64,000 nt of DNA from Arenimonas composti TR7-09 = DSM 18010 (GTDB taxonomy: Bacteria; Pseudomonadota; Gammaproteobacteria; Xanthomonadales; Xanthomonadaceae), in NCBI RefSeq assembly GCF_000426365.1, contig NZ_AUFF01000003.1, forward strand, positions 434,001 to 498,000. Reading direction: 5' to 3'. Numbering within the stretch: position 1 is the first letter of the stretch; each line of letters starts with the position of its first letter. Positions 22,806-45,024 of the stretch are shown here, in pieces. A model generated the notes under the pieces. That model had not been told where the DNA came from, searched no databases, and saw only the letters and a program-made list of their open reading frames with translations. The position numbers and the translations under genes are program-made.

Positions 22806-22863
22806 CGTCGTCTCCTGGGTCGGGTGGGAAGGAAGCCGCGGCGCGACCTCCTGCCGGAACCGT

Positions 22864-22879
22864 TGCAATGCACATGCCA
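22864..22879 (-). promoter_or_regulatory. Predicted sigma-54 (-24/-12) promoter for the BON protein gene
   Basis: Read on the minus strand the site is TGGCATGTGCATTGCA: TGGCAY, five bases, TTGCA, with the invariant GG and GC ten bases apart. It lies 58 bases before the ATG at 22805. The rest of the 299-base divergent space (22806-23104) shows no other element I can support; the plus-strand lipoprotein starts at its far end. Confidence 0.65.
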
Positions 22880-23104
22880 GCGGCGTCGCGAGCGTCACCC
22901 GATTGCACGGTGGACGCGGGGGCCGCCGTGGCGCCCCCGGGGTGACCTCGCGGCCGTCGCCAGAGGGCGGAAAACGCCAGCCGGGCCGTGTAAGGATTTC
23001 GCGCCTCCGTTCCGGGAGGAAGACACGGCGTCGACATTTCCGACACGCGGTCGCGACGGCCACCGGCGGATCGTCCTCGTCCCCGTTCCACGCCGGAGGC
23101 CAAC

Positions 23105-23602
23105 ATGGCCACCTCCGCTCGAAGCCTGCCCTTGCTGTCGGCCTGCGCGGCCCTGCTCGCCACGGGCCTCGCCGCCTGCGCGCCCGACCCGGCCGACGCG
23201 CCGCCGATCGGCGCGGCAGAGGTGGACGCCGCGAGCCCGGCCGATACCGCGGTGATGGCGGTGCGCGACCGCGTCATCCCCGGGCGCGCCGACGGCATCG
23301 ATACCGGAGCTGCCGCGGAAGTCGGCTTGATCGACGCCAGCGACGTCTACGCACGCGCGCAGGTGGAGTTCCGGCTCGCGCACCACGACGCCCGCGAGCG
23401 CCTGCTCGCCGCCCTCGAGGTCTGCGACGGCAAACAGGATCCGGAGCCCTGCGCCGCGCGTGCGCTGCGCGCCTACGACGCCGAGGTGGCCGACATCGGC
23501 CGGCGCACCGGCCTGCGCGCCGACGAGATCGTGCCGCTGGATTTCGCCGGCGGCGTCGGCGACGGCTTGCCGGTGGTGCTCGCGGGCGGCAACCGCGGCT
23601 GA
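23105..23602 (+). CDS. Hypothetical lipoprotein
   Basis: A 165-residue predicted lipoprotein with a signal peptide ending in the lipobox GLAAC (Cys25). The mature protein is acidic and mostly helical, with two Cys pairs around residues 104-118 (VCDGKQDPEPCAARA). No family recognised. A GGAGG site lies seven bases before the ATG. It is divergent from the BON protein and precedes ubiB by 84 bases. Confidence 0.65.
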   Translation: MATSARSLPLLSACAALLATGLAACAPDPADAPPIGAAEVDAASPADTAVMAVRDRVIPGRADGIDTGAAAEVGLIDASDVYARAQVEFRLAHHDARERLLAALEVCDGKQDPEPCAARALRAYDAEVADIGRRTGLRADEIVPLDFAGGVGDGLPVVLAGGNRG

Positions 23603-23686
23603 GGCACGGCGGCAGGAAAGGATTTCGCATCGCAGCGACGCCGTGCCCGCGATAGTCGGCGCCACTCCCACGACGCCCCGCCTGCC

Positions 23687-25333
23687 ATGAACGAAGCCTC
23701 GCGCCTCGCCGCCATCACCGCGTTCCTGCTCAAGCACCGCAGTTCGCCACTGTTCCGTCGCGCCGGTGTCGGACGCGAGGAAGCCTGCGATCCGGCGAAG
23801 GCGAAGGAATTCGCCGACGACCTCGAGGCGCTGGGGCCGACCTTCGTCAAGGTCGGGCAGACGCTGTCGACGCGACCCGACCTGCTGCCGCGCGAATACC
23901 TCGACGCGCTCGAGCGCCTGCAGGACGAGGCCGAGCCGGTGCCGCTCGAGCAGATCGAGGCGCAGATCGAGAAGGAACTCGGGGCGCCGGTGCGCAAGCT
24001 GTTCAAGGCGTTCTCGCCGGAGCCGATCGGCACCGCCTCGCTCGCCCAGGTGCACGCGGCGACGCTGCCGAGCGGTCGCCGGGTCGCGGTGAAGGTCCAG
24101 CGGCCGGACCTGTCGACGCAGGTCGAGACCGACCTCGCGTCGCTCAAGCGCCTGGTCGCCGCCGGTGGCGCGGTCGGCCTGGCGCCGGGCCGCTACGGCT
24201 TCGCCGAGTGGCTGGAGGAATTCCACGCGGCGATGCTCGCCGAGCTCGACTACCTCCAGGAGGCCGAAAACCTCGAGACCTTCCGCAGCCGGATGGAGGA
24301 GTTCCCCGACATCCTGGTGCCGGCGCCGGTGTGGGACTACACGACGTCGCGCGTGCTGACGATGGAGCTGGCCACCGGCATCCGCGTCACCGACATCCCC
24401 GAAGTGCGCCGCACCGAGATCGACCTGGTGCCGCTCGCGCACGACCTCGGCCGCGCCTACCTCGACCAGATCTTCGTGCACGGGCTGATCCACGCCGATC
24501 CGCACCCGGGCAACATGCTGCTCACCGCCGAGCACCAGCTGGTGCTGCTCGACCTCGGCATGGTCGGCCACGTGCCGCCGCGCCTGCGCGACCAGCTGCT
24601 GAAACTGGTGCTGGCGACGGTCGAGGGCCGCGGCGAGCAGGCCGCGGAAGTGTTCATGCACATGGGCACGCGGCTGGAGGAATTCGACGAGCCGCGCTTC
24701 ACCCGCGAGATCAGCCGCAAGGTGTCGCGCTTCTGCCACGCCGAGGTCGGCGTCGAGTCGGAAGGCGAGGTGCTGCTGGAGATGATCCGGGTCGCGATCG
24801 ACTGCGGCCTGAAGCCGCCGACCGAGCTGACGATGCTCGCCAAGACGCTGCTGAACCTGGAAGGGGTGATGCTGGCGCTCGACCGCGACGTGTCGATCAA
24901 GGGCATCCTGCGCGAGCACATGGAAAAGCTGTTCCGGGCGCGCGCGACGTCCAGCCTGGACCTCGGCCGCCTGGTCACGGATGCGCTGGACGTGCAGGAG
25001 CTGGTGCGCGAGGCGCCGCCGCGGCTGTCGGTGCTGCTGCGCACGTTGGCCGACAACCGCTTCCGCGTGCACATCGCCGGGCTCGAGGAATCGAAGCTGA
25101 TCGAGGGCATCCAGAAGGTCGCCAACCGCATCACCGCGGGGCTGATCTCGGCGGCGATGATCGTCGGCGCGGCGTTGATCATGCGCATCGACGCCGGCCC
25201 GAAGCTGTTCGGCTACCCGGCGCTGGCGCTGGTGATGTTCCTGATCGCGGCGGTGGTGGGCGGAATGCTGGTGTTCGCGTCGCTGGTCGGCGACCGGCGC
25301 GCCCCGCCCGCCGACCACAAAGACCCCATTTAA
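23687..25333 (+). CDS. ubiB: ABC1/AarF-UbiB family kinase-like protein
   Basis: A 548-residue UbiB/ADCK-family atypical kinase that supports ubiquinone synthesis. The family KxGQ motif is present (FVKVGQTLSTRPDLLP, around residue 55), with VAVKVQRPDL for nucleotide binding and HADPHPGNMLL (around 265) as catalytic and metal-binding loop. Two C-terminal hydrophobic helices (about 480-540) anchor it. It is not next to ubiE or ubiJ, so the symbol reflects family. Its TAA stop lies inside the inverted repeat of the transposase unit. Confidence 0.85.
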   Translation: MNEASRLAAITAFLLKHRSSPLFRRAGVGREEACDPAKAKEFADDLEALGPTFVKVGQTLSTRPDLLPREYLDALERLQDEAEPVPLEQIEAQIEKELGAPVRKLFKAFSPEPIGTASLAQVHAATLPSGRRVAVKVQRPDLSTQVETDLASLKRLVAAGGAVGLAPGRYGFAEWLEEFHAAMLAELDYLQEAENLETFRSRMEEFPDILVPAPVWDYTTSRVLTMELATGIRVTDIPEVRRTEIDLVPLAHDLGRAYLDQIFVHGLIHADPHPGNMLLTAEHQLVLLDLGMVGHVPPRLRDQLLKLVLATVEGRGEQAAEVFMHMGTRLEEFDEPRFTREISRKVSRFCHAEVGVESEGEVLLEMIRVAIDCGLKPPTELTMLAKTLLNLEGVMLALDRDVSIKGILREHMEKLFRARATSSLDLGRLVTDALDVQELVREAPPRLSVLLRTLADNRFRVHIAGLEESKLIEGIQKVANRITAGLISAAMIVGAALIMRIDAGPKLFGYPALALVMFLIAAVVGGMLVFASLVGDRRAPPADHKDPI

Positions 25334-26083
25334 CAACTGGGGTCAGATTCCTCCGTTAAGCGGTCGTTCGCCGGCGGCTTCCCGAATGGCTCGCGCCGGC
25401 GCAGACAGAACCTGATCTCGTCGACGACGTGCGCCGGGAGCGGCCTGTCGAAGAGCCGCGCGTAATTCTCACCGCGGCGCCGGTCCTCGTCACCCAGACC
25501 GAGGAACGCCGCATGCGGCGTCAGCAGCCCGTCCGGCAACCCGGTCGCGTTCGCAATGTGGCTCGACCATGGCCACTCCCCGGCCGTGCCGACCATCCGC
25601 GCCCGCACCGGGTTCTCCTCGATGTAGCGGTAGCAGGCGAGCGTGTGACCCAGGCCGTACACCGGCGTCGAGTGATACCGCCCTTCCCAGAGCGTTCCGC
25701 TGCGTCCGTGCGTGTCGTTGACGTGGCGAACGAACTTGCGGCCCAGTGATTGCATCGTCGCGGCCACCGCGCCTTCCTCGCCCGGGGTCACGAGCAGATG
25801 CACGTGGTTCGACATGAGCACGAAGGCGTGCACCAGGCAGACGTTGCGCATCGCTGCCTCCCGCAACGCGCCCAGGTAGGTGCGCCGGTCCTCGTCGGCG
25901 AAGAAGCAGAGCCCGCGGTTGTTTCCGCGCTGGACGATGTGCTGGGTGAGGTCGGGATGGGTGATTCGTGGACGACGGGGCATGGCGGAACCTCCGGTTC
26001 GCGACGATCGTCGCGATCCGGAGGTCTGAAGTCGTCGGCAATTTCCCGATTCTTAACGGAGGAATCCGACCCCGGTTGTTAAG
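25329..26083. mobile_element. REP-associated tyrosine transposase unit with 32-bp inverted ends
   Basis: A single transposase gene is bracketed by imperfect 32-base inverted repeats: 25329-25360 and 26052-26083, differing at three positions. The ends begin and finish with TTAA-type hexamers (CTTAAC, GTTAAG). The same 32-mer forms a perfect pair without a gene at 41999-42102. The unit sits exactly between ubiB and ku; the TAA codons of ubiB, the transposase and ku all fall inside the repeats. Confidence 0.88.
25330..25983 (-). CDS. REP-associated tyrosine transposase (RAYT, IS200/IS605-like Y1)
   Basis: A 217-residue Y1 HUH-type transposase. The metal-binding motif is LMSNHVHLLVTP (around residue 60) and the probable catalytic Tyr is in YRYIEENPVRARMV. 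The start MPRRPRITHPDLTQHIVQRGNNR is a typical RAYT N-terminus. Such domesticated transposases act on the palindromes that flank them and on dispersed copies. The last eight residues (EESDPSC plus stop) are encoded by the left repeat itself. The gene appears intact. Confidence 0.93.
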   Translation of the reverse strand: MPRRPRITHPDLTQHIVQRGNNRGLCFFADEDRRTYLGALREAAMRNVCLVHAFVLMSNHVHLLVTPGEEGAVAATMQSLGRKFVRHVNDTHGRSGTLWEGRYHSTPVYGLGHTLACYRYIEENPVRARMVGTAGEWPWSSHIANATGLPDGLLTPHAAFLGLGDEDRRRGENYARLFDRPLPAHVVDEIRFCLRRREPFGKPPANDRLTEESDPSC

Positions 26084-26969
26084 CCTTTTTGCGTTTGGCG
26101 GGTGCCTTTTTCGCCGCGGCCTTCCTCGCCGGCGCCTTCTTCGCTGCGGTCTTCTTCGCCGCCGGCGTGCGCTTGCCGCCCTCCAGGCTCTTCTCGAGCA
26201 GCGACATGAAGTCGACCACATTGGTGGCGGCGTCCTCGCCCGGCTCCTCGTCGCCGTCGCTGATGCGGGTCGTCGTGCCCTTCTGCTTCAGGCGCGCGTC
26301 GATCGCCTTGCGCAGCCGCGTGCGGAACTCGTCCTTGTACTGCGACGGATCCCACGGCGCCGCCATGCTCGACACCAGCCTGGCCGCCATGTCCTTCTCC
26401 TGCTTGCTGATCCGGTATTCCTTCTCGGCCTTGTCCGGCAGCTTGTAGTCGTCGAGGTCCACCAGTTCCTGCGGGAAGCGCAGCAGCACCAGGATCAGCG
26501 CCTTCTCGAAGGGCTTGACCATGCACAGGTATTCCTTCGTGCGGATCACGACCCGGGCGATGCCGACCTTGCCCTCGTCGCGCAGCGTTTCGCGCAGCAG
26601 CACATAGCCCTTCTCGGCCTTCTTGCCGGGCACCAGCACGTAGGGTTTCTCGAAGTAGCGGGCGTCGATCGCACCCTCGTCGACGAAGCCGGAGATCTCC
26701 ACGGCCTCACGCCCCTCGGGCGCCGCGTTCTTGAAGTCCTCCTCCTCCAGCACGACGTAGTTGCCCTTGTCGTATTCGAAGGCCTTGACGATCTCCTTCC
26801 ACGGCACTTCCTCGCCGGTCTCGGCATTGACCCGCTCGTAGCGAACCGCGGCGTTGTTGCGGCTGTCGAGCATGCGGAAGTGCAGGTCGGTCCTGCGCTC
26901 GCCGGCCATCAGGCTCACCGGGATGTTCAGCAGGCCGAACGACAGGGTGCCGGTCCAGATCGGGCGCAT
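26079..26969 (-). CDS. ku: Ku protein for non-homologous end joining
   Basis: A 296-residue bacterial Ku that forms a ring on DNA ends. The start MRPIWTGTLSFGLLNIPVSL and the core segment KPYVLVPGKKAEKGYVLLRE are family hallmarks. The C-terminus (about residues 268-296) is a Lys/Ala-rich tail (AAKKAPARKAAAKKAPAKRK) of the kind that binds DNA. The usual partner ligase LigD is not in the window. The ATG at 26969 fits the family; the upstream extension is spurious. The TAA stop is inside the transposase repeat. Confidence 0.95.
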   Translation of the reverse strand: MRPIWTGTLSFGLLNIPVSLMAGERRTDLHFRMLDSRNNAAVRYERVNAETGEEVPWKEIVKAFEYDKGNYVVLEEEDFKNAAPEGREAVEISGFVDEGAIDARYFEKPYVLVPGKKAEKGYVLLRETLRDEGKVGIARVVIRTKEYLCMVKPFEKALILVLLRFPQELVDLDDYKLPDKAEKEYRISKQEKDMAARLVSSMAAPWDPSQYKDEFRTRLRKAIDARLKQKGTTTRISDGDEEPGEDAATNVVDFMSLLEKSLEGGKRTPAAKKTAAKKAPARKAAAKKAPAKRKKA

Positions 26970-27069
26970 GGATCGTCTCCAGCGGTGGGTCGTGAAGACT
27001 CGCGCGGGCGCCGTGGTCTTCCGGTGAAGCCCGGCTTCCGGCGCGTTGCTCTTGCGCGGGGCCGGGCGA

Positions 27070-27129
27070 TGCGAGGGCCACGAGCTCGTTTCCTCCTCGC
27101 GGCTCGGAAAGCGACTCGTGGCCCTCGCA
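27070..27129. repeat. Perfect 15-bp inverted repeat
   Basis: TGCGAGGGCCACGAG at 27070-27084 is matched by its exact reverse complement at 27115-27129, with a 30-base loop. It lies between the divergent ku and glycosylase genes, 101 bases from the ku start. No T-run follows either arm, so it is not a standard terminator; it could be an operator or transcript structure. Confidence 0.6.
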
Positions 27130-27327
27130 CCGCCCGGCACGGAGATCGTCGCGCGCCGGAAGGGCTTCGCCGGCTGGCGTGGCCCGCGTTCCTCTCCACG
27201 CCTCGCGGGCGCGGGCCCACGCTAACGGGGCCGGCACATCCCCGTGGTTACGCTTCCCGCGGACGCATCCCCGCTTCGTCCAGGCCGGTGCCCCCCCGCC
27301 CCTCGGGCCGCGACGCCGCCGCTCCTG

Positions 27328-27366
27328 ACTACGAACTACCTCGTACGAACTACGAACTAGCACTCA
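27328..27366 (+). repeat. CGAACTAC repeat before the glycosylase start
   Basis: Three or so copies of ACTACGAACTAC/CTCGTACG units end five bases before the ATG at 27371. This is a longer version of the element at 8704-8731, and like it occupies the place where a ribosome site would be expected. Confidence 0.6.
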
Positions 27367-27370
27367 AGCC

Positions 27371-28946: not shown

Positions 28947-28949
28947 GCC

Positions 28950-29387
28950 ATGAGCACCGAACGCGCAACCCTCGACGACCTGCTGCAGGCCCTGCTCGAT
29001 GCGATCGCCTTCTTCGGCGACGCCGCCGACCACAGCCGCAACCCCGCGCATGCGCAGCTCTTCCGCGACCTGCGGATGAACAAGCAGAAGATCGCCGACG
29101 ACCTGCGCGCCGCCGCGCCGATCGGCAGCTCGCCGCCGCAGCGCAGCAGCGTCGCCGCCGGCCTGCTCGCCGGTTGGACCGACCTGCGCGCGCGCCTGGC
29201 CGACGATCCCGATGCGCCCTACGCGCGCGCGCTGGAAGCGCAGGAGGACCGCCTGCTGTCCACCTTCCACGACGCCGTGAACCACGGCCCGCCCGGGCCG
29301 GTGCGCGACATCGCCCGCAGCTACCTGCCGCAGGTGCAGCGCATGCACGACCTGCTGAAGGCGCTGAAGGACCAGTACGACCACTGA
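28950..29387 (+). CDS. DUF2383-like four-helix-bundle protein
   Basis: A 145-residue all-helical soluble protein that resembles the PA2169/DUF2383 family (ferritin-like four-helix bundle). Motifs: LDDLLQALLDAIAFFGDAAD at the start and SYLPQVQRMHDLLKALKDQ at the end. It lacks the full set of iron ligands. These proteins are linked with stress but have no known activity. The start at 28950 is set by GGAGG. Its TGA directly touches the tandem repeat downstream. Confidence 0.7.
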   Translation: MSTERATLDDLLQALLDAIAFFGDAADHSRNPAHAQLFRDLRMNKQKIADDLRAAAPIGSSPPQRSSVAAGLLAGWTDLRARLADDPDAPYARALEAQEDRLLSTFHDAVNHGPPGPVRDIARSYLPQVQRMHDLLKALKDQYDH

Positions 29388-29388
29388 C

Positions 29389-29470
29389 GGGGTACGTCCC
29401 CTTCCTACAGGGTACGTCCCCTTCCTACAGGGTACGTCCCCTTCCTACGGGGTACGTCCCCGTTCAGGGG
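29389..29470. repeat. Tandem 20-bp repeat (GGTACGTCCCCTTCCTACAG)
   Basis: Three and a half copies with an exact 20-base period begin at 29391, right after the DUF2383 stop codon. The last copy is diverged. The reverse-orientation motif recurs at 44531-44590. There are no unique spacers, so it is not CRISPR. Confidence 0.9.
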
Positions 29471-32996: not shown

Positions 32997-34427
32997 ATGA
33001 CCGCAACGCAGTCCCCCGCCTCACGGCGCGTGGCGATCGTGACGACGCCTGCGCCCACCCTGTTCATCCTCGACGACGACGTCGGCTTCGTGCATGCGGC
33101 CGCCGAACTCGCGCGCGCGCACGGCTGGGAGATCACCATCGCCGGCACGCTCGAGCAAGCACGCGCGCGCCTCGCCTCGGCGCAGTTCGACCTCGCCCTG
33201 CTCGACCTCAACCTGCCCGACGGCGACGGCCTCGCGCTGATCGACGCGATCGACCTCGGCCGCACCCAGGTCGTGCTCTGCACCGGGCGGCCGACGGTGG
33301 ATTCGGCGCTGAAGGCCTTGCGCGTGCACGTCGCCGACTACCTGGTCAAACCGCTGCACGCCAGCCAGTTCACCGCCCTGCTCGACACCGCCGCGCGCCG
33401 CCGCCCGGCGACGGCTTGCGCCCCCGGCCGCGACTGGCACGGCATCGCCGGCGAATCGAAGGCGATCCGCGAACTGCGCCGGCAGGTGCAGCGGGTGGCG
33501 CCGACCGATGCCGCGGTGTTCGTCGAGGGCGAGAGCGGCACCGGCAAGGAACTCGTGGCCGGCGCGATCCACGCCGAGAGCGGCCGCCGCGGCGCCTTCG
33601 TCGCGATCAACTGCGGCGCGGTGCCGGCCGACCTGCTCGCGACCGAGCTGTTCGGGCACGAGCGCGGCAGCTTCACCGGCGCCACCGGCCGCCACATCGG
33701 CGTGTTCGAACAGGCCCAGGGCGGCACCCTGTTCCTCGACGAGATCACCGAGATGCCGGCGAAGCTGCAGGTGCACCTGCTGCGGGCGCTGGAGTCGCGG
33801 CGCATCCGCCGCGTCGGCGGCAGCGACGACATCGCCGTCGACGTGCGCATCGTCAGCGCGACCAACCGGCCGTTCGCCGACGCGATCCGCGAAGGCCGCC
33901 TGCGCGAGGACCTGTACTACCGCCTCGCCGAATTCCCGCTGGCGGTGCCGCCGCTGCGCGAACGCCCGGACGACATCCTGCTGATCGCCGACGTCTTCCT
34001 GCAGCGCCTCAACGCCCGCCACGACGTCTGCCGCCGGCTGTCGCAGGACGGCGCCGAGCGGCTGCTGCGGCACGGCTGGCCCGGCAACGTTCGCGAGCTG
34101 AAGAACGTGCTGCAGCGCGCCTTCATCCTCGCCGAGGACGAACTGGTGACGCCGGTGCCGGGCGCCGGCGCCACCGACGCGCCGCTGGCCGAAACCCAGG
34201 GCACGATCACCTTCGCGGTCGGCACGCCGATGCACGAGATCGAGCGGCGGATGCTGTTCAAGACCCTGGCCTATTTCGACAACAACAAGGCGCGCGCGGC
34301 GCAGGCGCTCGGCATCACCACGAAGACGATCTACAACCGCCTGCACGCCTACCGCAGCGCCGGCATCCCGGTGACCGAAGGGGAACCCGCCGGCGCGCGC
34401 CGCGGGACCGACCATGACGAGGCCTGA
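32997..34427 (+). CDS. Sigma-54-dependent response regulator (NtrC family)
   Basis: A 476-residue activator: receiver domain (acceptor D70 in LLDLNLPDGDG), AAA+ domain with Walker A GESGTGKE (around residue 180) and GSFTGA in place of the usual GAFTGA sigma-54 contact loop (around 223), and a Fis-type helix-turn-helix (KARAAQALGITTKTIYNRLH, around 440). GGAG precedes the ATG. It should work with RpoN on -24/-12 promoters; four such sites lie within 13 kb. It overlaps the small histidine-box gene, and no full kinase is adjacent. Confidence 0.92.
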   Translation: MTATQSPASRRVAIVTTPAPTLFILDDDVGFVHAAAELARAHGWEITIAGTLEQARARLASAQFDLALLDLNLPDGDGLALIDAIDLGRTQVVLCTGRPTVDSALKALRVHVADYLVKPLHASQFTALLDTAARRRPATACAPGRDWHGIAGESKAIRELRRQVQRVAPTDAAVFVEGESGTGKELVAGAIHAESGRRGAFVAINCGAVPADLLATELFGHERGSFTGATGRHIGVFEQAQGGTLFLDEITEMPAKLQVHLLRALESRRIRRVGGSDDIAVDVRIVSATNRPFADAIREGRLREDLYYRLAEFPLAVPPLRERPDDILLIADVFLQRLNARHDVCRRLSQDGAERLLRHGWPGNVRELKNVLQRAFILAEDELVTPVPGAGATDAPLAETQGTITFAVGTPMHEIERRMLFKTLAYFDNNKARAAQALGITTKTIYNRLHAYRSAGIPVTEGEPAGARRGTDHDEA

Positions 34428-34647
34428 GCCACCGGGGGCAGCGGACGACGAGACCGCAGCGTCCGCCGCGCGCCTGCTGCACGACCTGCGCAACCGGCTC
34501 GGCTCGCTGCTGCTCAATGCCGAGGTGCTGATCGCGCGCCTGCCGGAAGGCGAGCGCGAATCGGCCTCGGCGCGTCACCTGGTCGCCGACGGGCGCCGGT
34601 GCGCGGCGCTGATCATGCAGCTCGAGGAAAGCCTGAAGCAGCGGTGA
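34414..34647 (+). CDS. Stand-alone histidine-box (DHp-like) protein
   Basis: A 77-residue protein resembling only the dimerisation/phosphoacceptor part of a histidine kinase: RLLHDLRNRLGSLLLNAEVL (H23) matches the H-box, followed by a second helix (ADGRRCAALIMQLEESLKQR). There is no ATPase domain. The start lies inside the 3' end of the sigma-54 regulator gene (14-base overlap), so the two are cotranslated. It may relay or drain phosphoryl groups to that regulator. This is inference; the H-box match is by eye. Confidence 0.65.
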   Translation: MTRPEPPGAADDETAASAARLLHDLRNRLGSLLLNAEVLIARLPEGERESASARHLVADGRRCAALIMQLEESLKQR

Positions 34648-35195: not shown

Positions 35196-36062
35196 TCAGC
35201 CGCCGAGGAACGAGCCGCCGTTGACGTGCAGCACCTGGCCGGTGATGAAGGCGCCGTCGGCACTCGCCAGCAGCACGTACACCGGCGCGATCTCCGCCGG
35301 CTGGCCGGCACGCCCGAGCAGGGTGTTGCTGCCGAACTTCGCGACCTTGTCGGGCGGGAAGCTGGCGGGGATCAGCGGCGTCCACACCGGTCCGGGCGCG
35401 ACCGCATTGACGCGGATGCCGCGATCGGCGAGCGCCTGCGCGAAGGACTTCGTCATCGCCGCGATCGCGCCCTTGGTGCCGGCGTAGTCGAGCAGGCTCT
35501 CGTGGCCGCGCGCGCCGGTCACCGAACCGGTGTTGATCACCGCCGCGCCCTCGCCCAGATGCGGCAGTGCCGCGACCAGCACGTTGTAGTAGCTGAAGAC
35601 GTTGGTCTCGAAGGTGCGCCGGATCTGCGCCGCCTTCAGGTCTTCCGGCTCGGCGGTCTCGTGCTGCTCGCCGCAGTTGTTGACGAGCACGTCGAGGCCG
35701 CCGAAGGCGCGCACGACCCGGTTCACCGCGGTGCGGCAGTTGCGTTCGTTCGCGAGGTCGGTGGCGAGCAGCAGGCAGCGCCCGCCCTCGGCCTCGACCA
35801 GCCGCTTCGTCTCGCGGGCGTCCTCGTTCTCCTCGAGGTAGGCGATTGCAATATCCGCGCCCTCGCGGGCGAAATGCACGGCCACGGCACGGCCGATGCC
35901 GCTGTCGCCACCGGTGATGAAGCAACGCCGGCCCTGCAGCTTGCCGCTGCCGCGGTAGTCGTCGCGGATCGTCACCGGCGCGGGTGTCATCGCCTTCTGC
36001 CGGCCGGGCTGGCGGGACTGCTTCTGCGCGGGGCGCAGCTTGCGCGTGGACTTCGACTTCAT
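35196..36062 (-). CDS. Short-chain dehydrogenase/reductase (YghA/YhdF-like)
   Basis: A 288-residue SDR with a basic N-terminal extension (residues 1-25). The cofactor motif is TGGDSGIG (around residue 50), the catalytic pair DYAGTKG (Tyr and Lys) is near 191 and Ser is in NTGSVTG. This long subgroup (YghA of E. coli, YhdF of Bacillus) is often stress-induced. It follows the gene at 36075-36323 by 12 bases, so it should be transcribed from the same sigma-54-like promoter. Substrate unknown. Confidence 0.88.
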   Translation of the reverse strand: MKSKSTRKLRPAQKQSRQPGRQKAMTPAPVTIRDDYRGSGKLQGRRCFITGGDSGIGRAVAVHFAREGADIAIAYLEENEDARETKRLVEAEGGRCLLLATDLANERNCRTAVNRVVRAFGGLDVLVNNCGEQHETAEPEDLKAAQIRRTFETNVFSYYNVLVAALPHLGEGAAVINTGSVTGARGHESLLDYAGTKGAIAAMTKSFAQALADRGIRVNAVAPGPVWTPLIPASFPPDKVAKFGSNTLLGRAGQPAEIAPVYVLLASADGAFITGQVLHVNGGSFLGG

Positions 36063-36074: not shown

Positions 36075-36323
36075 TTACATCGTCAGGAAGGAATTTCGCG
36101 GTCTCGGGATCGCCACCTCGACGTCGTCGTCGCGCCCGTCGAAATACTCGGCGGGAACGATCTGCCGCGACTCCGGCGCCTCCAGCAGCTGGCGCAGGCT
36201 GTCGTGGGCCGCGGCCGCGAACGTGCCGTGGCCCTCGGCCGCCGAGAACACCACCAGGTGCACCAGCGCATCGATCGCATCGGCCGCGGCCTGCGGCAGG
36301 GTCTGGGCTTCGCGGACGCTCAT
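36075..36323 (-). CDS. Small hypothetical protein, first gene of an SDR operon
   Basis: An 82-residue soluble protein, helical at its N-terminus (AQTLPQAAADAIDALVHLVV) and acidic at the C-terminus (VPAEYFDGRDDDVEVAIPRP). Family not recognised. The ATG at 36323 has AGGAGA seven bases upstream. A sigma-54-like promoter lies 34 bases before the start. The SDR gene follows after 12 bases. Confidence 0.65.
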   Translation of the reverse strand: MSVREAQTLPQAAADAIDALVHLVVFSAAEGHGTFAAAAHDSLRQLLEAPESRQIVPAEYFDGRDDDVEVAIPRPRNSFLTM

Positions 36324-36357: not shown

Positions 36358-36373
36358 TGCATCGTCCGTGCCA
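36358..36373 (-). promoter_or_regulatory. Predicted sigma-54 promoter, minus strand
   Basis: Read on the minus strand: TGGCACGGACGATGCA, with TGGCAC and TGCA spaced so that GG and GC are ten bases apart. Only the first base of the -12 element deviates (A for T). It lies 34 bases upstream of the ATG at 36323 and back-to-back with the plus-strand site at 36455. Confidence 0.65.
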
Positions 36374-36454
36374 ACCGGCGGCGGCCGGCACGCCTTTCCC
36401 CCCGCTCGGAGGCGGCCGGATCCGTGCCGAAAAAGCTTCCCCGCCGCCGCCCGG

Positions 36455-36470
36455 TGGCACGCGTGTTGCA
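36455..36470 (+). promoter_or_regulatory. Predicted sigma-54 promoter, plus strand
   Basis: TGGCACGCGTGTTGCA is a full match to the -24/-12 consensus (TGGCAC, five bases, TTGCA; GG-N10-GC). It lies 43 bases before the ATG at 36514. Together with the site at 36358 it makes a divergent sigma-54 promoter pair, with about 80 bases between them for a shared activator site. Confidence 0.72.
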
Positions 36471-36513: not shown

Positions 36514-37167
36514 ATGGCACGACAGGACACTGCAGGCGAGCGCGAGCGACCGTTGCCGGTCGCCGATCGGGGCCAGTCGTACGAGCGCGCCGGTGCGAAG
36601 GATTTCGAGGACGAGAACTTCGGTGCCGGCGGCGATTACCGCGGCGAGCGCGACTTCGGCGGCTTCAGCGACCAGGACTACGGCAGCCAGGGCTATTCGG
36701 GCCAGGGCTACGGCGACCGCAGCTATGGCGATCCCGACTACGGCGGCCAGACCTTCGCGCGGCGCGGTGGCGGCGAGCAGGGCGACGACGGCGCCCAGGC
36801 CGCGGAACCCCAGGCGCCCGAACTGGCGGAAGGCACGTGTGGTTTCGCGCACCATTCCGCCGCCTACGCCGACCACGGGCGCGGCTACGGCGACCAGGGC
36901 TTCGCCGGACTGACCTACGGCGACCACGGCTCGGCACCGGCGGACGCCGGCAGAGGCCAGGGCTTCGGCGGCCAGAACTACGACGGCAAGGGGCGCATCC
37001 GCGTGCCGAGCGACGACATGACCACCGCCGCGCAGCCACGCCCGGACGCTCAGGACGAGGAATTCGCGCACGCGTCCGAGGCCGACGGTGACGATCGCGG
37101 GAGCAGCGGCCGCCCGGGCGAGGCCGGTGAGGCCGGCACCGGCGACGGCGACGAGGAGGAATCGTGA
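36514..37167 (+). CDS. Gly/Tyr/Asp-rich low-complexity hydrophilic protein
   Basis: A 217-residue soluble, acidic protein dominated by Gly, Asp, Tyr, Gln, Glu and Ala. Residues about 35-80 are repeats of the type DYGSQGYSGQGYGDRSYGDP, with further copies near 120-155 (GYGDQGFAGLTYGDHG). One Cys (TCGFAHH). No signal or membrane segment and no known domain. It resembles the repeat region of the BON protein at 21912-22805 and, like it, follows a sigma-54-like promoter. AAGGAG precedes the ATG. Such disordered proteins often protect against drying or form gels; this is a guess. Confidence 0.75.
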   Translation: MARQDTAGERERPLPVADRGQSYERAGAKDFEDENFGAGGDYRGERDFGGFSDQDYGSQGYSGQGYGDRSYGDPDYGGQTFARRGGGEQGDDGAQAAEPQAPELAEGTCGFAHHSAAYADHGRGYGDQGFAGLTYGDHGSAPADAGRGQGFGGQNYDGKGRIRVPSDDMTTAAQPRPDAQDEEFAHASEADGDDRGSSGRPGEAGEAGTGDGDEEES

Positions 37168-37889
37168 TGCGCCGCCGCCCGGCGCGCGGCCGCGCCCTGG
37201 GCCGCGGCGCCCTGCTGCTGGTGCCGGCGCTGGTGATCGGCAACGCCCTCGCCGCGCAGAATCCGCAGGGCCCGACCGAAGAACCGACGTCGCCGCCGGT
37301 TGGCGTGGAAGGCGTCGACGGCCGCCAGGTCGACCCGCTGCCGACGAACCCGCCGCCGGCCATGCAGCCGCCGGTCGACGAAGACGGTTCCGTCGCCACC
37401 GCGGTCGACACGACCCAGCCACCCGCGCCGGAACCGGCGCCGCTCACCAGCGACGACGCTACTTTCCTCGCCGCGGCGATCGCTTCCGGCGAACGCGAGG
37501 TCTCGGCGTCGCGTCTGGCGCGCACCGCCGCGGCGGACGAAGAAGTCCGCGAGTTCGCGGCGCGGCTGGAGCGCGAACACGCCGCCGCGAACGCCGATCT
37601 CGATGCGCTGCGCGGCGGCAGTGCCGCCTCGCGCGTCGCGCCGTCGGCGCCGCGGAGCGAAGCCGGCCTGGTCGGCCTGCGCACCCTGCCCTCGACCGAG
37701 TTCGACGCCGCCTGGCTGCGCTGGCAGGCCGACGAGCACACGATGGCGATCGCCCTGTTCGAGCGCGCCTCGGCCGATGCCGCGCACAGCGAGGCGGTCC
37801 GTCGCGCCGCCGCCGGCCGCCTGCCGCAGCTGCGCCTGCACGCCGCCCGGGTCGCCGAACTGCAGCGCCGGATCGCCATCGCCGACTGA
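37164..37889 (+). CDS. DUF4142-type exported protein
   Basis: A 241-residue exported protein: a signal or anchor segment (about 12-31, GALLLVPALVIGNALAAQ), a Pro-rich linker (35-90) and a DUF4142-like helical domain (about 92-238, DDATFLAAAIASGEREVSAS, then EFAARLEREHAAANADL). DUF4142 proteins are ferritin-like in fold and widespread in stress clusters. The GTG start overlaps the upstream stop (GTGATG; the second codon ATG is an alternative), so it shares the sigma-54-like promoter. Confidence 0.78.
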   Translation: MMRRRPARGRALGRGALLLVPALVIGNALAAQNPQGPTEEPTSPPVGVEGVDGRQVDPLPTNPPPAMQPPVDEDGSVATAVDTTQPPAPEPAPLTSDDATFLAAAIASGEREVSASRLARTAAADEEVREFAARLEREHAAANADLDALRGGSAASRVAPSAPRSEAGLVGLRTLPSTEFDAAWLRWQADEHTMAIALFERASADAAHSEAVRRAAAGRLPQLRLHAARVAELQRRIAIAD

Positions 37890-38729: not shown

Positions 38730-39227
38730 ATGAAGAGAAAGCACGTCTACCTGACCGACGACCTGGAACAGGCACGCGAGGCGATCAGCGCCGCGCGACG
38801 CGCCGGCGTGCTCGACGACGACATCGTCCTGATCGCGCGCAACGACATCGAGATGGAGGTGCTGCCGGAGAACCGGCGCTCCGCGGACACCGACTTCCAG
38901 CCGGCGGCGGTGAAGGGCGCGATGACCGGCGGCAGCGTCGGCATCGTCGCCGGCCTCGTCGCGATGGTGATCCCGCCGCTCGGCGTGACCGTCGCCGGCG
39001 CCGCGGCGATCGCGGCCCTCGGCGCGGTCACCGGCACCTGGGCCTCGTCGCTGATCGGCTCGGCGTTGCCGGATCCGATCCGTCGCCGCTTCGACGACGA
39101 AATCCAGGCCGGCCGCATCCTCGTGGTGGTCGACATCCCGGACGAGTCGCTGGCGCTGGTCGATGCCGAAGTGCAGCGGACCGGCGCGTCGCAGCTGCCG
39201 TTCGAGGAACCGTCGGCGATGACCTGA
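38730..39227 (+). CDS. DUF1269-like membrane-associated stress protein
   Basis: A 165-residue protein with an N-terminal soluble part (MKRKHVYLTDDLEQAREAIS), a central Gly/Ala-rich hydrophobic hairpin (about 62-105, GGSVGIVAGLVAMVIPPLGV) and a C-terminal strand region ILVVVDIPDES. The layout resembles DUF1269 and glycine-zipper stress proteins. Its stop overlaps the mscS start, so the two are coupled. No sigma-54 match is visible upstream. Confidence 0.7.
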   Translation: MKRKHVYLTDDLEQAREAISAARRAGVLDDDIVLIARNDIEMEVLPENRRSADTDFQPAAVKGAMTGGSVGIVAGLVAMVIPPLGVTVAGAAAIAALGAVTGTWASSLIGSALPDPIRRRFDDEIQAGRILVVVDIPDESLALVDAEVQRTGASQLPFEEPSAMT

Positions 39228-40561: not shown

Positions 40562-40609
40562 CGCGGCGTCGGTGAACGCCCTGCGTCAGCGTCGGCGAGC
40601 TCCGTGCTT

Positions 40610-40843
40610 TCAGACCCTGTCTTCCAGCCCCCGCACTCCGCTGTGCGTCGCGCAATGCGCGCAGCAGAACATCTTCCCGTCCGCCTCGGCGCCGTGGCCG
40701 ATGATCCGGCAGTCGCAGTGGGCGCAGCGTGGGGCGAAGGCGTGGATCGCGCATTCGAAGCTGTCGAAGGTGCCGCGGCGGTCGCCCTGGCTCAGGGTGA
40801 AGGCCTTGTCGTAGTCGTTGCCGCAGACGTCGCAGACGGCCAT
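40610..40843 (-). CDS. Small zinc-ribbon-like protein
   Basis: A 77-residue cytoplasmic protein with four Cys pairs: CDVCGNDYDKAF at the start, ECAIH, CAHCDCRIIGHG and MFCCAHCATHSG, arranged like a double zinc ribbon. It is a conserved hypothetical type seen across bacteria, also in stress settings. The ATG at 40843 gives the usual MxVCDVCGN start. It is divergent from corA and convergent with mscS. Confidence 0.78.
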   Translation of the reverse strand: MAVCDVCGNDYDKAFTLSQGDRRGTFDSFECAIHAFAPRCAHCDCRIIGHGAEADGKMFCCAHCATHSGVRGLEDRV

Positions 40844-40991
40844 CGCTGTTCTCCTTGCGAATCGCGAACGGGTCTCCAGCCTCGCCGCCGGCCCGTGAGT
40901 CGGGCGCGAACGCTTGCCCGGTCGGCGCCGCCGCCACGGCGCACTCACGGTGCGGCTGGCATGGTCGCGCGGACCTTTCCCCGAGGTGGCG

Positions 40992-41990
40992 ATGGCCGTC
41001 GTGGTTCCCCCTGCCGACCTGCCGCCGCTGCGCGCGGTGCTGTTCGACGTCGAAGGCGGCGGCGAGCGTCACCTCGACCTCGTCGAACTCGAAAGCCTCG
41101 AGGTCGGCCCGGGGCAGATGCTGTGGGTGGACCTGTGCGGGGCCGGCGACGACCTGGTCGCCGACGTGTGGCGGGCGCTGCGGCTCCCCGAATGCCACCT
41201 CGCCGGCAACGGGCATCCGGCGCTGGCGCGGCTGGGCACCCGCTTCGCGCTGCGTGTCGTTTCGGTGCGCGGCAGCCCGGCGGCCGGCTTCGAGGGCGAC
41301 GTGCTCGACGTCTGCGCCGGCGACAACGTCGTCGTGACCAGCCACGCCGCGCCGCTGGCCTTCCTCGAGGAACTGCGCGGCGGCGTCGACGCCGGCCGCG
41401 GCGGCCGCGGCGAGCTCGGGCGGCTGAGCGCCGAAAGCTTCGCGGCGACGGTGCTGGACGCGCAGCTGTCGACCTATTTCGACGCGGTGTCGGCCTTCGA
41501 GATGGCGGTGGAGCGCCTGGAGATGGAGATCTTCGACGACCGCCGGCAGGAATGCCTCGGCGAGCTGCGCGAGCTGCGGCGGGCGGCGTCGCGGCTGCGG
41601 CGGATGCTGGCGCCGCACCGCACCGTGTTCGCGTCACTGTCGCGGCCCGACTTCCGGCCCGACGAGGGCGCGCAGGCGGACCGGCATTTCCGCTCGCTCG
41701 ACGTGCGTTTCGAGCGGGCGATGGACATGGTCGAGAACTGCCGCGACCTGGTGATGGGCAGCTTCGACCTGTTCAGCAACCAGACCGCGCTGCGAATGAA
41801 CCGCACGATGTACGTGCTGACCTTCGCGACCGTGGTGCTCGGCCTGATGGCGGTCGTGGTCGGCGCTTTCGGGATGAACTTCGCGACCCGGCTGTTCGAC
41901 GCCGAGTTCGGCTTCTCCCTCACGGTCGGCGCCCTGGCCCTGCTCGGCGTCTCCGCCCTCCTGTTCGCCCGCTGGCGGCGGTGGTTCTAA
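40992..41990 (+). CDS. corA: CorA-family divalent-cation transporter
   Basis: A 332-residue CorA-type channel: a soluble N-terminal domain, long stalk helices (about 145-265) and two C-terminal membrane helices, the first ending in the signature GMN (GAFGMNF, around residue 296). The length and layout match the Mg2+/Co2+ or Zn2+ transporting CorA/ZntB group; the ion cannot be told apart by sequence. GAGGTG precedes the ATG. The TAA is nine bases before the REP pair at 41999. Confidence 0.9.
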   Translation: MAVVVPPADLPPLRAVLFDVEGGGERHLDLVELESLEVGPGQMLWVDLCGAGDDLVADVWRALRLPECHLAGNGHPALARLGTRFALRVVSVRGSPAAGFEGDVLDVCAGDNVVVTSHAAPLAFLEELRGGVDAGRGGRGELGRLSAESFAATVLDAQLSTYFDAVSAFEMAVERLEMEIFDDRRQECLGELRELRRAASRLRRMLAPHRTVFASLSRPDFRPDEGAQADRHFRSLDVRFERAMDMVENCRDLVMGSFDLFSNQTALRMNRTMYVLTFATVVLGLMAVVVGAFGMNFATRLFDAEFGFSLTVGALALLGVSALLFARWRRWF

Positions 41991-41998
41991 GGGGTCGG

Positions 41999-42102
41999 CT
42001 TAACAACTGGGGTCAGATTCCTTCGTTAAGGCGCGGGCGGAGTGGCTGCTGCTGACGGATCTGCGAGCGTCTTAACGAAGGAATCTGACCCCAGTTGTTA
42101 AG
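41999..42102. repeat. Non-autonomous REP pair of the transposase family (REPIN-like)
   Basis: Perfect 32-base inverted repeats at 41999-42030 and 42071-42102 with a 40-base spacer. Each arm begins with CTTAAC and ends with GTTAAG. The arm sequence is that of the ends of the transposase unit at 25329-26083 with a TTCG in place of TCCG, so this looks like a short element mobilised by that transposase. It lies between the convergent corA and PAS-kinase genes. Confidence 0.92.
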
Positions 42103-42117
42103 CCCGGTCGTCGAGGC

Positions 42118-43629
42118 TTATCGGGGCTTGAGGGCCGGGAGGGTCTTGAAGAGCATGTCGAGCGCCAGCGGCTTCGCGAGGTGGGCGTCGAAGCCGGACT
42201 CCGCCGACAGCTCCCGGTCCGCCTGGGTCGCGTAGCCGGAGATCGCGACGATCTGCATGCCTTTCAGCTCCGGCTCGCCGCGGAACGCGCGCGCCAGTTC
42301 GTAGCCGCTCAGTCCCGGCAGGCCGAGATCGAGCAGGGCGATGTCCGGCTTCTCCGCGCGCGCCAGCGCCAGCGCGGTCTCGCCGTCGAAGGCCATCACC
42401 GCGCGGTGGCCGCCCATCTCGACGACCTCGCGCAGGATCTGTGCGGCGTCGACGTTGTCGTCGACCACCAGGACGGTCAGCCCGGCCTCCGCGGCCGTCG
42501 ACTGCATCGGCAGCGTCACCTCGACGCGGGTGCCGCAGCCCGGCCCCGCGCTCTCGACGACGATCGTGCCGCCGTGCAGGTCGACGATCCGCCGCGCGAT
42601 CGTCAGCCCGAGGCCGAGTCCGCCCGGGCCCCGGTCGAGCGCGCGGCGGTCCTGGGTGAACGAGTCGAACACCCGCGGCAGCACCTCGGGATCGATGCCG
42701 ATGCCGTTGTCGGCGACCGTCAGCACCGCATCGTTCTCGCGCACGTCGACGGCGATGTCGATGCGGCCGTCCGGCGGCGTGTACTTCGCCGAATTGCCGA
42801 CCAGGTTGCTGACGACCTGGGTCAGGCGCACGGGGTCGCCGCGCACCACCGGATCGTGCTTCAGCTCGACGGTCAGCGTGTGCTGCTTCTGGTCGGCGAT
42901 CGGCCGGACGGCTTCGATGCCCTGCGCGACCGCGTCCGCGAGGCGCATCCGCCGCAGCTCCAGACGCACGTCGCCGCGGCTGATGCGGCTGACGTCGAGC
43001 AGGTCGTCGACCAGGCGGCCGAGATGGCGCGCCTGCCGCTCGATGATCGTCAGCGCGCGCGCGGTGCGTTCGGGATCGCTGGTGCCGAGCTGGGCCGCCG
43101 ACGAGGCCATCAGGATCGGCGCCAGCGGATTGCGCAGTTCGTGCGCGAGCATCGCCACGAACTCGGTCATCTGCCGGTTGCTGGTTTCCAGCGACTCCAT
43201 GCGCTTGCGCTCGGTCAGGTCGCGGGTGACCTTGGCGAAGCCGCGCAGGTGGCCGCTGTCGTCGTGCAGCGCGGTGATCACCACGTTGGCCCAGAAGCGG
43301 CTGCCGTCCTTGCGCACGCGCCAGCCTTCGTCCTCGAAGCGGCCCTCGGCGGCGGCGAGCTTGAGTTCGGTCTGCGGCCAGCCGGCGCGCAGGGCCTCCT
43401 CCGGATAGAAGCGCGAGAAGTGGTGGCCGACGATCTCCGCCGCCGCATAGCCCTTGATGCGCTGGGCGCCGCGGTTCCAGCTCATCACGATGCCGGCCGG
43501 GTCGAGCATGAAGATCGCGTAGTCGCGCACGCGTTCCACGAGCAGCTGGAACATCTCCTCGCGGGCGTGCGGCGGCATCTGTTCCGGATCCTGTACCGGT
43601 GGATCCGGGCGCGCGGCTTCCTGAGTCAT
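42118..43629 (-). CDS. PAS-domain hybrid histidine kinase with C-terminal receiver
   Basis: A 503-residue soluble kinase. Order: PAS domain (about 25-140, DYAIFMLDPAGIVMSWNRGA), HisKA with MLAHELRNPLAP (H163), HATPase (about 270-375, ADNGIGIDPEVL, GGLGLGLTIAR) and a C-terminal receiver (about 385-500, VLVVDDNVDAA; acceptor Asp in LLDLGLPGLSG). This layout is common in bathy- or stress-type hybrid kinases. The ATG at 43629 overlaps the upstream EcsC-gene stop as ATGA. Confidence 0.92.
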   Translation of the reverse strand: MTQEAARPDPPVQDPEQMPPHAREEMFQLLVERVRDYAIFMLDPAGIVMSWNRGAQRIKGYAAAEIVGHHFSRFYPEEALRAGWPQTELKLAAAEGRFEDEGWRVRKDGSRFWANVVITALHDDSGHLRGFAKVTRDLTERKRMESLETSNRQMTEFVAMLAHELRNPLAPILMASSAAQLGTSDPERTARALTIIERQARHLGRLVDDLLDVSRISRGDVRLELRRMRLADAVAQGIEAVRPIADQKQHTLTVELKHDPVVRGDPVRLTQVVSNLVGNSAKYTPPDGRIDIAVDVRENDAVLTVADNGIGIDPEVLPRVFDSFTQDRRALDRGPGGLGLGLTIARRIVDLHGGTIVVESAGPGCGTRVEVTLPMQSTAAEAGLTVLVVDDNVDAAQILREVVEMGGHRAVMAFDGETALALARAEKPDIALLDLGLPGLSGYELARAFRGEPELKGMQIVAISGYATQADRELSAESGFDAHLAKPLALDMLFKTLPALKPR

Positions 43630-44438
43630 GCGGCTTCCCCCAGCCGTTGCCACTGCTCGCGGATCACCAGCGCGCCATGTGTCCGCTCGAGCCGGCGGAC
43701 GATGAAGTGGCCACGGGCCATGCGCTGGAAATGAGAGATGAAGATCAGGTTCAGCGCCGCGCCGCTGGCGGCGCCGACGATCGGCGCGGCCTGCGCCAGC
43801 GCCTTCTGGCTGACCGGGATCGAGAAGCGGCTGGCGATGCCCTCGATCAGCCGCACCAGCACCGGCGCGCTGCCGTTGGCGGCGGCGCCGGCGAGGTGCC
43901 TGGTCGCCGCGCTGATCTGCTGCGCGAGCGCGGCACGGGTCGCGAAGTAGCCCGATTCGGCACCGTCGTCGCTGCGGCTGCGGCCACCGAGCGCCAGCAC
44001 TTCCAGACAGGCCAGGCGGGTGTCGACCTCGCGCGGGTCCTCGCCTTCGCTACGGGCGATGTCGGCGATCGAGCGCAGCATCGCGGTCGTCGTCAGCGGC
44101 AATTCGACCGCCAGCCCGGCCAGGCCGAAGAAACCGCCGACCGCGCCGGTACCGAGCACCGCGGCGCGGTGCAGGCCCTCGCGCGCGATCACGCCGGGCC
44201 TGCGGTCGCGCAGCGTGCGCACCGCGGCCGCGAAGGCCGTCTCCACCGCCTTGCGGCTGGCGCTTTCGACCAGGCGGCTCGCGGCCGCGGGCAGCTGCCG
44301 GGTCAGCAGGTATTCGATCGGCGCGCCGACCAGGTTCGCGAGTTGCACCGCCATGCCGGGGCTGGTCAGCAGCTCCCGCGCCAGTGCGAGATCGGCGAGG
44401 TCGGCATCCGGTGGGGTGGTGACGAGCACTGCTCTCAT
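43626..44438 (-). CDS. EcsC family protein
   Basis: A 270-residue member of the EcsC family (named after a Bacillus protein of unknown activity). The middle carries two hydrophobic stretches (GTGAVGGFFGLAGLAVELPL near residue 115, and a C-terminal IVGAASGAALNLIFISHF). The start MRAVLVTTPPDADLADL at 44438 is chosen over a longer frame with no family match. It is translationally coupled to the PAS kinase, which suggests joint action, though of unknown kind. Confidence 0.8.
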   Translation of the reverse strand: MRAVLVTTPPDADLADLALARELLTSPGMAVQLANLVGAPIEYLLTRQLPAAASRLVESASRKAVETAFAAAVRTLRDRRPGVIAREGLHRAAVLGTGAVGGFFGLAGLAVELPLTTTAMLRSIADIARSEGEDPREVDTRLACLEVLALGGRSRSDDGAESGYFATRAALAQQISAATRHLAGAAANGSAPVLVRLIEGIASRFSIPVSQKALAQAAPIVGAASGAALNLIFISHFQRMARGHFIVRRLERTHGALVIREQWQRLGEAA

Positions 44439-44530
44439 CTGGCGCCATCCTAGCGCCGGACGGCGAGCCGGCGGCGGGAAACCTGCGATCGGTGACGGGT
44501 CCTTCACATTGCCGACCGCCGTGTCGCCTG

Positions 44531-44590
44531 CGTGTGAACGGGGACGTACCCCGTAAGAAAGGGACGTACCCCGTAGGAAGGGGCGTAGCC
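44531..44590. repeat. Tandem 20-bp repeat (GGGACGTACCCCGTAGGAAG)
   Basis: Two and a half copies of a 20-base unit with the core GGGACGTACCCC, itself a near palindrome. It is the reverse-orientation relative of 29389-29470. It lies between the EcsC gene (upstream, divergent reading) and the KGG gene. Confidence 0.85.
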
Positions 44591-44642
44591 GCAGACCGCA
44601 GGAGGCGGGCGGCCGAGGACGGGCCGCCCGCTCCGTCGCGGA

Positions 44643-44960
44643 CTAGCGACCGCCGCGATTGCCGCCGCCGCTGGCCTCACCGCCCTTGCGGCCGGCCTCG
44701 CGGGCTTCCTGGCTGTCGAACTCGTGGGCGTTGCCGCTCCGGTGCGCGGCCTTGCCGCCTTCGGAGGCGATCTCGCGCTGCCGCTCGGGATCCATGCCTG
44801 CGAATCCGCGACCCTCACTCTGGTTCTGCTGACCCTGGCTGCCGCGGTTGCCGCCGCCCTGGCTCTGGCTCTGCTGGCCCTGGCTGCTGCGGCTGCCGCG
44901 CTGGCTGCCCTGGCTCTGGCTCTGCTGGCCGCGGCCGCCCTGCTGGTTGCGATTGGCCAT
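44643..44960 (-). CDS. KGG-motif stress-induced protein
   Basis: A 105-residue hydrophilic protein. The first half is low-complexity Gln/Ser/Gly (QQSQSQGSQRGSRSSQGQQ); the second half has KGG/con-10 type repeats (ASEGGKAAHRSGNAHEFDS, EAGRKGGEASGGG). Proteins of this class are produced under starvation or desiccation and may protect DNA or proteins. A sigma-54-like promoter lies 48 bases upstream of the ATG at 44960. Confidence 0.85.
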   Translation of the reverse strand: MANRNQQGGRGQQSQSQGSQRGSRSSQGQQSQSQGGGNRGSQGQQNQSEGRGFAGMDPERQREIASEGGKAAHRSGNAHEFDSQEAREAGRKGGEASGGGNRGGR

Positions 44961-45008
44961 TTCCGGTCTCCGTGGGGTTCGCAGCGACGTTGCTGCGAAG
45001 GAGAGCGC

Positions 45009-45024
45009 AGCAATGGCCGTGCCA
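45009..45024 (-). promoter_or_regulatory. Predicted sigma-54 promoter for the KGG gene
   Basis: On the minus strand: TGGCACGGCCATTGCT, a full TGGCAC and TTGCW match with GG-N10-GC. It lies 48 bases before the ATG at 44960 and about 160 bases after the stop of the preceding lipoprotein gene. Confidence 0.7.

Follow-up and report, generated by a model that had tools for sequence, protein, structure and literature searches.

Four putative sigma-54 promoters and a candidate phosphorelay to stress-type genes in Arenimonas composti

Which regulator controls a group of stress-type genes in Arenimonas composti TR7-09 = DSM 18010, and by what route would a signal reach it? The question is raised by a 64-kb stretch of this genome (C3:434001-498000, on contig NZ_AUFF01000003.1 of a 3.16-Mb assembly in 29 contigs; hereafter, the window), in which a first-pass annotation had placed four sigma-54 promoters within 22 kb and read them as a sigma-54 stress regulon. 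Judged from sequence, the four promoters themselves are well supported, and it is probable that they serve a stress regulon switched on by a sigma-54 activator, or enhancer-binding protein (EBP), encoded at 32997-34427 (+). A 77-aa protein encoded at the end of the EBP gene is its proposed phosphotransfer partner.

The four sites, at 22864-22879 (-), 36358-36373 (-), 36455-36470 (+) and 45009-45024 (-), are all exact matches to TGGCAY-N5-WTGCW, in the positions and on the strands first assigned. Their GG and GC elements are 10 nt apart, and each site lies upstream of a gene in the right orientation, 58, 34, 43 and 48 nt from the start codon, in agreement with the 34-58 nt reported earlier. They are the predicted promoters of, respectively, a BON-domain gene, an 82-aa gene followed by a short-chain dehydrogenase (SDR) gene, a Gly/Tyr/Asp-rich gene (a site scoring 19.5 with a position-specific scoring matrix) and a KGG gene. 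There is no further exact match in the 64-kb window. Dinucleotide shuffles gave 0.14 expected matches, and four were reached in 0 of 100 shuffles, in keeping with the previous estimate of fewer than one match by chance. When one mismatch was allowed, the excess was gone (five sites, i.e. one extra, vs. 3.24 expected). Because this search added just one site, the signal sits in the perfect matches.

A genome-wide scan had been proposed as a check, with equal numbers of matches inside genes counting against promoters. The genome contains 10 exact matches, compared with 2 for the reversed pattern; only 2 of the 10 are intragenic, and the other 8 precede genes, which were listed, in the right orientation. 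Four of the 10 fall within 22 kb (binomial p ~5e-7), a value that is descriptive only, since the region was picked for these sites. The six matches outside the window comprise those of pilA and glnA, one at C2:106216, one at C4:132228 and the two intragenic ones (cysS-like and cas7-like), the pilin, glutamine synthetase, cysS and cas7 identities having been named by eye from translations. Pilin and glutamine synthetase genes are textbook sigma-54 targets, and their recovery in the same genome indicates that the pattern selects the right class of site. The C2:106216 site precedes a further stress-type gene, to which the regulon probably extends and whose product is small and hydrophilic and contains a glycine-zipper-like stretch (Pfam matches below cut-off); the C4:132228 site, also in the right orientation, precedes a gene of unclear identity. 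A relaxed pattern (last base C or G, and other changes) gave no genome-wide excess (18 vs. 20 in the control), and therefore no further targets in this genome are claimed from relaxed sites. The sigma-54 machinery is present: the genome has one RpoN gene, and six of its ten Sigma54_activat matches are strong.

The sites could instead be chance matches or belong to another DNA-binding protein, with the genes using other stress sigma factors. The absence of an excess among one-mismatch sites would fit such an account, whereas four sites with 0.14 expected, the internal positives pilA and glnA, and, as described below, the conservation of sites before orthologous genes in other genera and a dyad shared upstream of them argue against it. 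We consider it very improbable, and the same recovery, conservation and dyad support the earlier interpretation as a sigma-54 stress regulon.

The EBP, which the first-pass annotation had missed, is likely the activator of this regulon. It carries a receiver domain (REC), an AAA+ domain and a Fis-type helix-turn-helix (HTH), and its matches to REC, Sigma54_activat and HTH_8 are all above the Pfam cut-offs, as for a response-regulator EBP of the NtrC type; it accounts for one of the six strong Sigma54_activat matches of the genome. By reading, the aspartates, threonine and lysine of the receiver are in place. The AAA+ loop reads GSFTGA, probably a natural variant of GAFTGA, in the window and in 78 of 96 rows overall, with GAFTGA in 16 and 2 unmatched.

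A search of 149 family genomes gave matches to the EBP above 400 bits in 30, its own included. The other 29 show 48-69% identity to the window EBP, and three of the five other members of the genus are among them. In 20 family loci (numbered with L below), relatives of BON, KGG, SDR, RES, YflT, DUF2383, DUF892 and CorA genes lie near the EBP gene, each in some loci. Sigma-54 sites in these relatives were scored with a hand-made matrix. Of the 15 loci with a BON hit, 9 (L072, L077, L078, L081, L082, L084, L087, L088 and L090) have a site scoring at least 15.5 ahead of the BON gene, and sites of at least 14.2 also precede SDR (L089, L091), DUF2383 (L072, L073), RES (L090) and the 82-aa gene (L072). 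The congener G103 has TGGCATGTGCATTGCT ahead of its BON gene, and a homolog of the 82-aa gene with a sigma-54 site.

Of the 149 family genomes, 33 carry a KGG gene, and 20 of these 33 are among 32 EBP-positive genomes (Fisher 1e-8; 18 of 33 when the EBP set is narrowed to 30 genomes, Fisher 3e-7; both uncorrected for kinship). The best KGG gene has a strong site (at least 16) ahead of it in 9 of 20 EBP-positive genomes, the window's included, and in 1 of 10 EBP-negative ones; with the reversed matrix, 0 of 30 upstream regions reached 14. This contrast, which bears on the enrichment before KGG genes that had been anticipated, is not significant by itself (p 0.10). Genome-wide site totals, looked at in 60 of the 149 genomes, show no obvious separation of EBP-positive from EBP-negative genomes, which we ascribe to variation in other sigma-54 regulons.

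A candidate binding site for the activator was sought upstream of the promoters. Searches for shared 9-mers and palindromes among the window's own promoters gave nothing, and a dyad emerged only after relatives were pooled. Palindromes were ranked by their enrichment in the regions before 108 strong sigma-54 sites. GGAA-N5-TTCC came second (10 vs. 0.5 expected), and all 10 cases come from the window or from Xanthomonadaceae/Dokdonella loci with the EBP; the first rank went to GTAA-N3-TTAC (8 vs. 0.2 expected), which came from loci outside the window's family. A dyad matrix was built with 7 of the 10 GGAA-N5-TTCC cases as seeds, and a score of at least 10 was counted as a dyad. At EBP-positive loci, 24 of 44 non-seed sigma-54 sites had a dyad upstream, compared with 0 of 30 sites in ten EBP-negative family genomes (p 1e-7) and with 1 of 43 sites given by the reversed matrix. 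In the window, a perfect candidate dyad, CCGGGAA-N5-TTCCCGG, lies near the KGG promoter (45162-45180; score 16.1, one of the 7 seeds), and TGCCGAAAAAGCTTCCCCG lies in the region shared by the divergent promoters 36373 and 36455 (36425-36443; score 12.1, non-seed). In relatives, the EBP gene too has a dyad in the 300 nt ahead of it, at 14 of 26 loci (seeds at 3), compared with 2.6% of random windows, a contrast inflated by the coding DNA that these windows included. This position fits a site bound by that regulator. The association of the GGAA-N5-TTCC dyad with the EBP is well supported at the level of sequence, and the EBP would bind it.

Several observations weigh against a sigma-54 stress regulon under this EBP. 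All matrices and cut-offs were set by the analyst. A sigma-54 site of at least 15.5 is absent from 5 of the 20 family loci (L073, L074, L079, L080 and L085, the last only 5.5 kb long), and a strong site is missing before 11 of the 20 EBP-positive KGG genes. Three of the 24 dyad promoters (L077, L078 and L081) carry the exact core of the discovery step, and 21 of 41 remain without them. The BON promoter (22879) has a weak dyad only (6.6, shuffle p 0.10), as has the C2:106216 promoter (3.9), and no strong dyad was found upstream of the window's own EBP gene. These last three gaps, together with the further EBPs of the genome, would fit an account in which the promoters were sigma-54-dependent but served by another, NtrC-like or PilR-like, EBP, while the local one controlled something else. 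However, the EBP-negative genomes have other EBP matches and no dyad at any of their 30 sites; within the Arenimonas genome the dyad is absent at pilA (as at C4:132228) and not significant at glnA (8.5, p 0.3); and the dyad precedes the EBP gene in relatives. Service by another EBP is therefore improbable in our estimate, and control by the local EBP remains the preferred reading.

Other palindromes were noted. GTAA-N3-TTAC recurs upstream of sigma-54 sites in other branches of the EBP family (L107, L109, L129, L130, L133 and L148), which suggests a changed binding specificity or another regulator. Upstream of the C2:106216 promoter (L002, ~1380-1500), where the GGAA dyad is absent, three close copies of a ACCGTGCGCGGCACCGTT-like palindrome are possibly the site of another regulator. 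GTCG-N4-CGAC looked enriched and was set aside, as by our reading it falls, in some loci (e.g. L084), within the start of the receiver of the divergent EBP.

How would the EBP be switched on? The gene for the 77-aa protein (34414-34647, +) overlaps the last 14 nt of the EBP gene. It is coding, as four pairs of close relatives differ most often at third codon positions. Across 25 sequences, H23 is the sole invariant column; the motif H-x-x-x-N is present in 22 of the 25, with N replaced by K in three Alteromonas rows, and the residue after the histidine is D in 13 and otherwise R, G, A, Q, S or E. In an hhalign comparison with true HisKA domains, the profile of the family reached 96.6%, with His aligned on His; AlphaFold modelled a two-helix hairpin (pLDDT 88), so that the hairpin and the conserved histidine of a HisKA, or dimerization and histidine phosphotransfer (DHp), element are both in place; and the best Foldseek matches of the model were to the kinase ZraS (prob 0.99, E 0.19). 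The profile match, the model and the ZraS match point to a stand-alone DHp element that lacks the ATPase domain.

A short DHp open reading frame (ORF) lies behind the EBP gene in 11 of the 20 family loci. In three more, two of them from Arenimonas and one from elsewhere in the family, the element forms the C-terminus of a 165-179-aa protein (L073:8693-9211, L074:11277-11774 and L075:10180-10719), whose N-terminal part had no significant family match where scanned (L073, L075). Alteromonas, Aestuariibacter, Bowmanella and Gilvimarinus likewise have the DHp gene after the EBP gene. When 99 activators were placed in a tree, chosen as best matches to the window EBP and not as an even sample, the rows with DHp fall within one supported gammaproteobacterial group, 27 of whose 36 members have it. 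The predicted pairing of EBP and DHp is thus well supported.

The genes behind the pair bear on what the DHp protein may do. In most loci of the Alteromonas/Gilvimarinus type, genes for a kinase, a lone receiver and a hybrid kinase come next. In Alteromonas (L117) and Gilvimarinus (L142), these are a CHASE3 kinase, the lone receiver and a hybrid kinase that carries three receivers (kinase and receiver domains by Pfam); the same order was read from ORF tags in L119, L124, L139, L153, L160 and L163, and in L136 the kinase and the lone receiver were checked by Pfam. In Xanthomonadaceae (L072, L083, L089 and L100), a hybrid kinase with a C-terminal REC lies directly behind EBP and DHp. In Cupriavidus (L121, L126, L145, L150 and L159) and Verticiella (L120), a kinase-like HisKA protein with a weak or undetected ATPase domain is found behind the EBP, and one Cupriavidus counterpart weakly matches the histidine phosphotransferase family PF10090 (E 0.027), which we take to be the ChpT family. 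Operons with a lone receiver or a hybrid kinase suggest a multistep relay. A protein that could take, but not make, phospho-histidine, and that sits between receivers, is most simply a carrier, like Spo0B or PhyT.

In the proposed mechanism, the relay would begin with the autophosphorylation of a sensor kinase (in the window, probably the hybrid kinase encoded at 42118-43653), which would pass its phosphoryl group on to a receiver domain; the DHp protein would take it on His23 and hand it over to the receiver of the EBP; and the EBP would then bind GGAA-N5-TTCC dyads and open the sigma-54 promoters that precede protective genes such as BON, KGG and SDR. A Spo0-like phosphorelay would thereby drive the sigma-54 stress regulon. 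Which kinase feeds the DHp protein, and which stress is sensed, we infer.

The chief competitor of this scheme accepts the promoters and the regulon and assigns the DHp protein another role: it could act as a phosphatase or hold the EBP, which a kinase would then phosphorylate directly. H-x-x-x-N resembles the HisKA phosphatase motif, and its presence in 22 of 25 members favours such a role; moreover, Sphingomonas PhyT is reported both to hold and to phosphorylate its partner (PMC5898713). In contrast, the residue after the histidine varies, the N is K in the three Alteromonas rows and the histidine alone is invariant; the lone-receiver and hybrid-kinase operons point to a multistep relay; and in Cupriavidus the same place is taken by longer proteins that combine HisKA with a degenerate ATPase region, one of them having the weak PF10090 match. 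A phosphatase or holder is, in our view, rather unlikely.

Phosphate carriage itself also has evidence on its debit side. The window protein scores 16.9 with HisKA PF00512, and its best short relative scanned 26.8, below the cut-off of 26.9; Foldseek gave no match with E <0.001, and unrelated hairpins came close behind ZraS; at 6 of the 20 family loci no DHp gene was found after that of the EBP; in Bowmanella (L127), EBP and DHp occur without the kinase-receiver genes; and in the window ~7.5 kb separate the hybrid kinase from the EBP. We give about even weight to the proposal that the DHp protein acts as a phosphate carrier, in which role it would pass phosphate on and not remove it.

These data suggest that (i) the four sites are probably sigma-54 promoters of a stress regulon that the local EBP switches on; and (ii) tentatively, this is a general-stress-type response controlled by sigma-54 through a Spo0-like relay whose phosphotransferase is a bare DHp hairpin of ~75 residues, a single module that Xanthomonadaceae, Alteromonadaceae and Cellvibrionaceae inherited, and that a sister branch in Burkholderiales employs a ChpT-like carrier. 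The second proposal, with all its parts, is a serious possibility that falls somewhat short of even.

The first-pass annotation had described the faced genes as of one kind, small hydrophilic or stress-type; the label is fair, and the stress function rests on family names. The BON promoter faces a Gly-rich protein with a C-terminal BON domain (21912-22805, -; Pfam E=1.2e-16). The 82-aa protein (36075-36323, -) has no family match and is followed by the SDR (35196-36062, -; adh_short_C2, E=9e-56). On the other side of the divergent pair lie a 217-aa acidic, low-complexity Gly/Tyr/Asp-rich protein (36514-37167, +), without family match, and a DUF4142 protein whose gene overlaps it (37164-37889, +; E=1.5e-21). 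The KGG-repeat stress protein (44643-44960, -; KGG, E=3.6e-16) is followed on the same strand by an EcsC-family protein (43626-44507, -; E=2.4e-25) and by the candidate phosphoryl source, the hybrid kinase (42118-43653, -), with the Pfam order PAS-HisKA-HATPase-REC. A terminator-like site was looked for between KGG and EcsC and none was found, from which we guess that the hybrid kinase may share the KGG transcript.

Near the KGG promoter, 45998-50804 holds trehalose-phosphate synthase-, GH15- and trehalose phosphatase-like genes (named by eye), and OtsA-like matches also occur near related EBPs in Trinickia and Paraburkholderia. The window is further marked by repeats. A 20-nt tandem repeat, GGGTACGTCCCCTTCCTACA, is present in four copies at 29387-29461 and two inverted copies at 44535-44583, apparently intergenic, and the 11-mer GGGTACGTCCC occurs 6 times, compared with 0 in 100 shuffles. 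A transposase resembling the REP-associated Y1 type (25330-25983, by eye) is flanked at both ends by near-identical TTAACAACTGGGGTCAGATTCC-like repeats (25330-25360 and 26052-26082), and an inverted pair of such repeats lies 16 kb away, between CorA and the hybrid kinase (41997-42104).

Broad stress regulons of Proteobacteria are usually credited to RpoS or EcfG. In the literature searched, from which subscription journals and preprints mostly fell outside, no earlier account of such a sigma-54 stress regulon and no DHp-only partner of a sigma-54 activator were found. What would be new is the target set and the site of the sigma-54 regulon, and the reduced phosphotransferase; the underlying kinds are known. 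If the proposal is true, it would explain the control of BON, KGG and similar protective genes across soil, water and marine bacteria, and a DHp carrier standing alone would show in minimal form how kinases give rise to phosphorelays.

Known sigma-54 regulons serve nitrogen metabolism, pili, flagella and phage shock. The present one would share their promoter type, RpoN and AAA+ activator, and differ in its targets, BON, KGG, SDR and similar genes. The best-scoring curated EBP family in NCBIfam is PrsR, the PEP-CTERM response regulator (TIGR02915), from which the EBP differs in scoring 341.3, below the family cut-off of 502.6. The Bacillus sporulation phosphorelay, Spo0F-Spo0B-Spo0A, offers a likeness in kind: a kinase, a lone receiver, a phosphotransferase derived from a histidine kinase (HK) and a DNA-binding response regulator, with comparable parts in one gene row of Alteromonas and Gilvimarinus. 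It differs in that the carrier here would be a bare DHp hairpin without a second domain, and the output a sigma-54 activator beside stress genes. Phosphotransferases of the Spo0B/ChpT/PhyT type consist of a DHp plus a degenerate ATPase-like domain; the window protein, at 77 aa, has no such second domain, which is present in the Cupriavidus counterparts. ChpT of Caulobacter is reported to be an HK-derived histidine phosphotransferase (PMC3433190); the weak PF10090 match of the Cupriavidus protein beside the EBP is a likeness to it, whereas the gammaproteobacterial DHp proteins lack its second domain. The closest parallel among the accounts consulted is Pak-SdrG-PhyT-PhyR of Sphingomonas, in which general stress genes are likewise reported to be controlled by way of a lone receiver and a phosphotransferase of HK origin (PMC5898713). 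Sphingomonas PhyT is membrane-bound and longer, and PhyR frees the sigma factor EcfG, whereas here sigma-54 would be activated.

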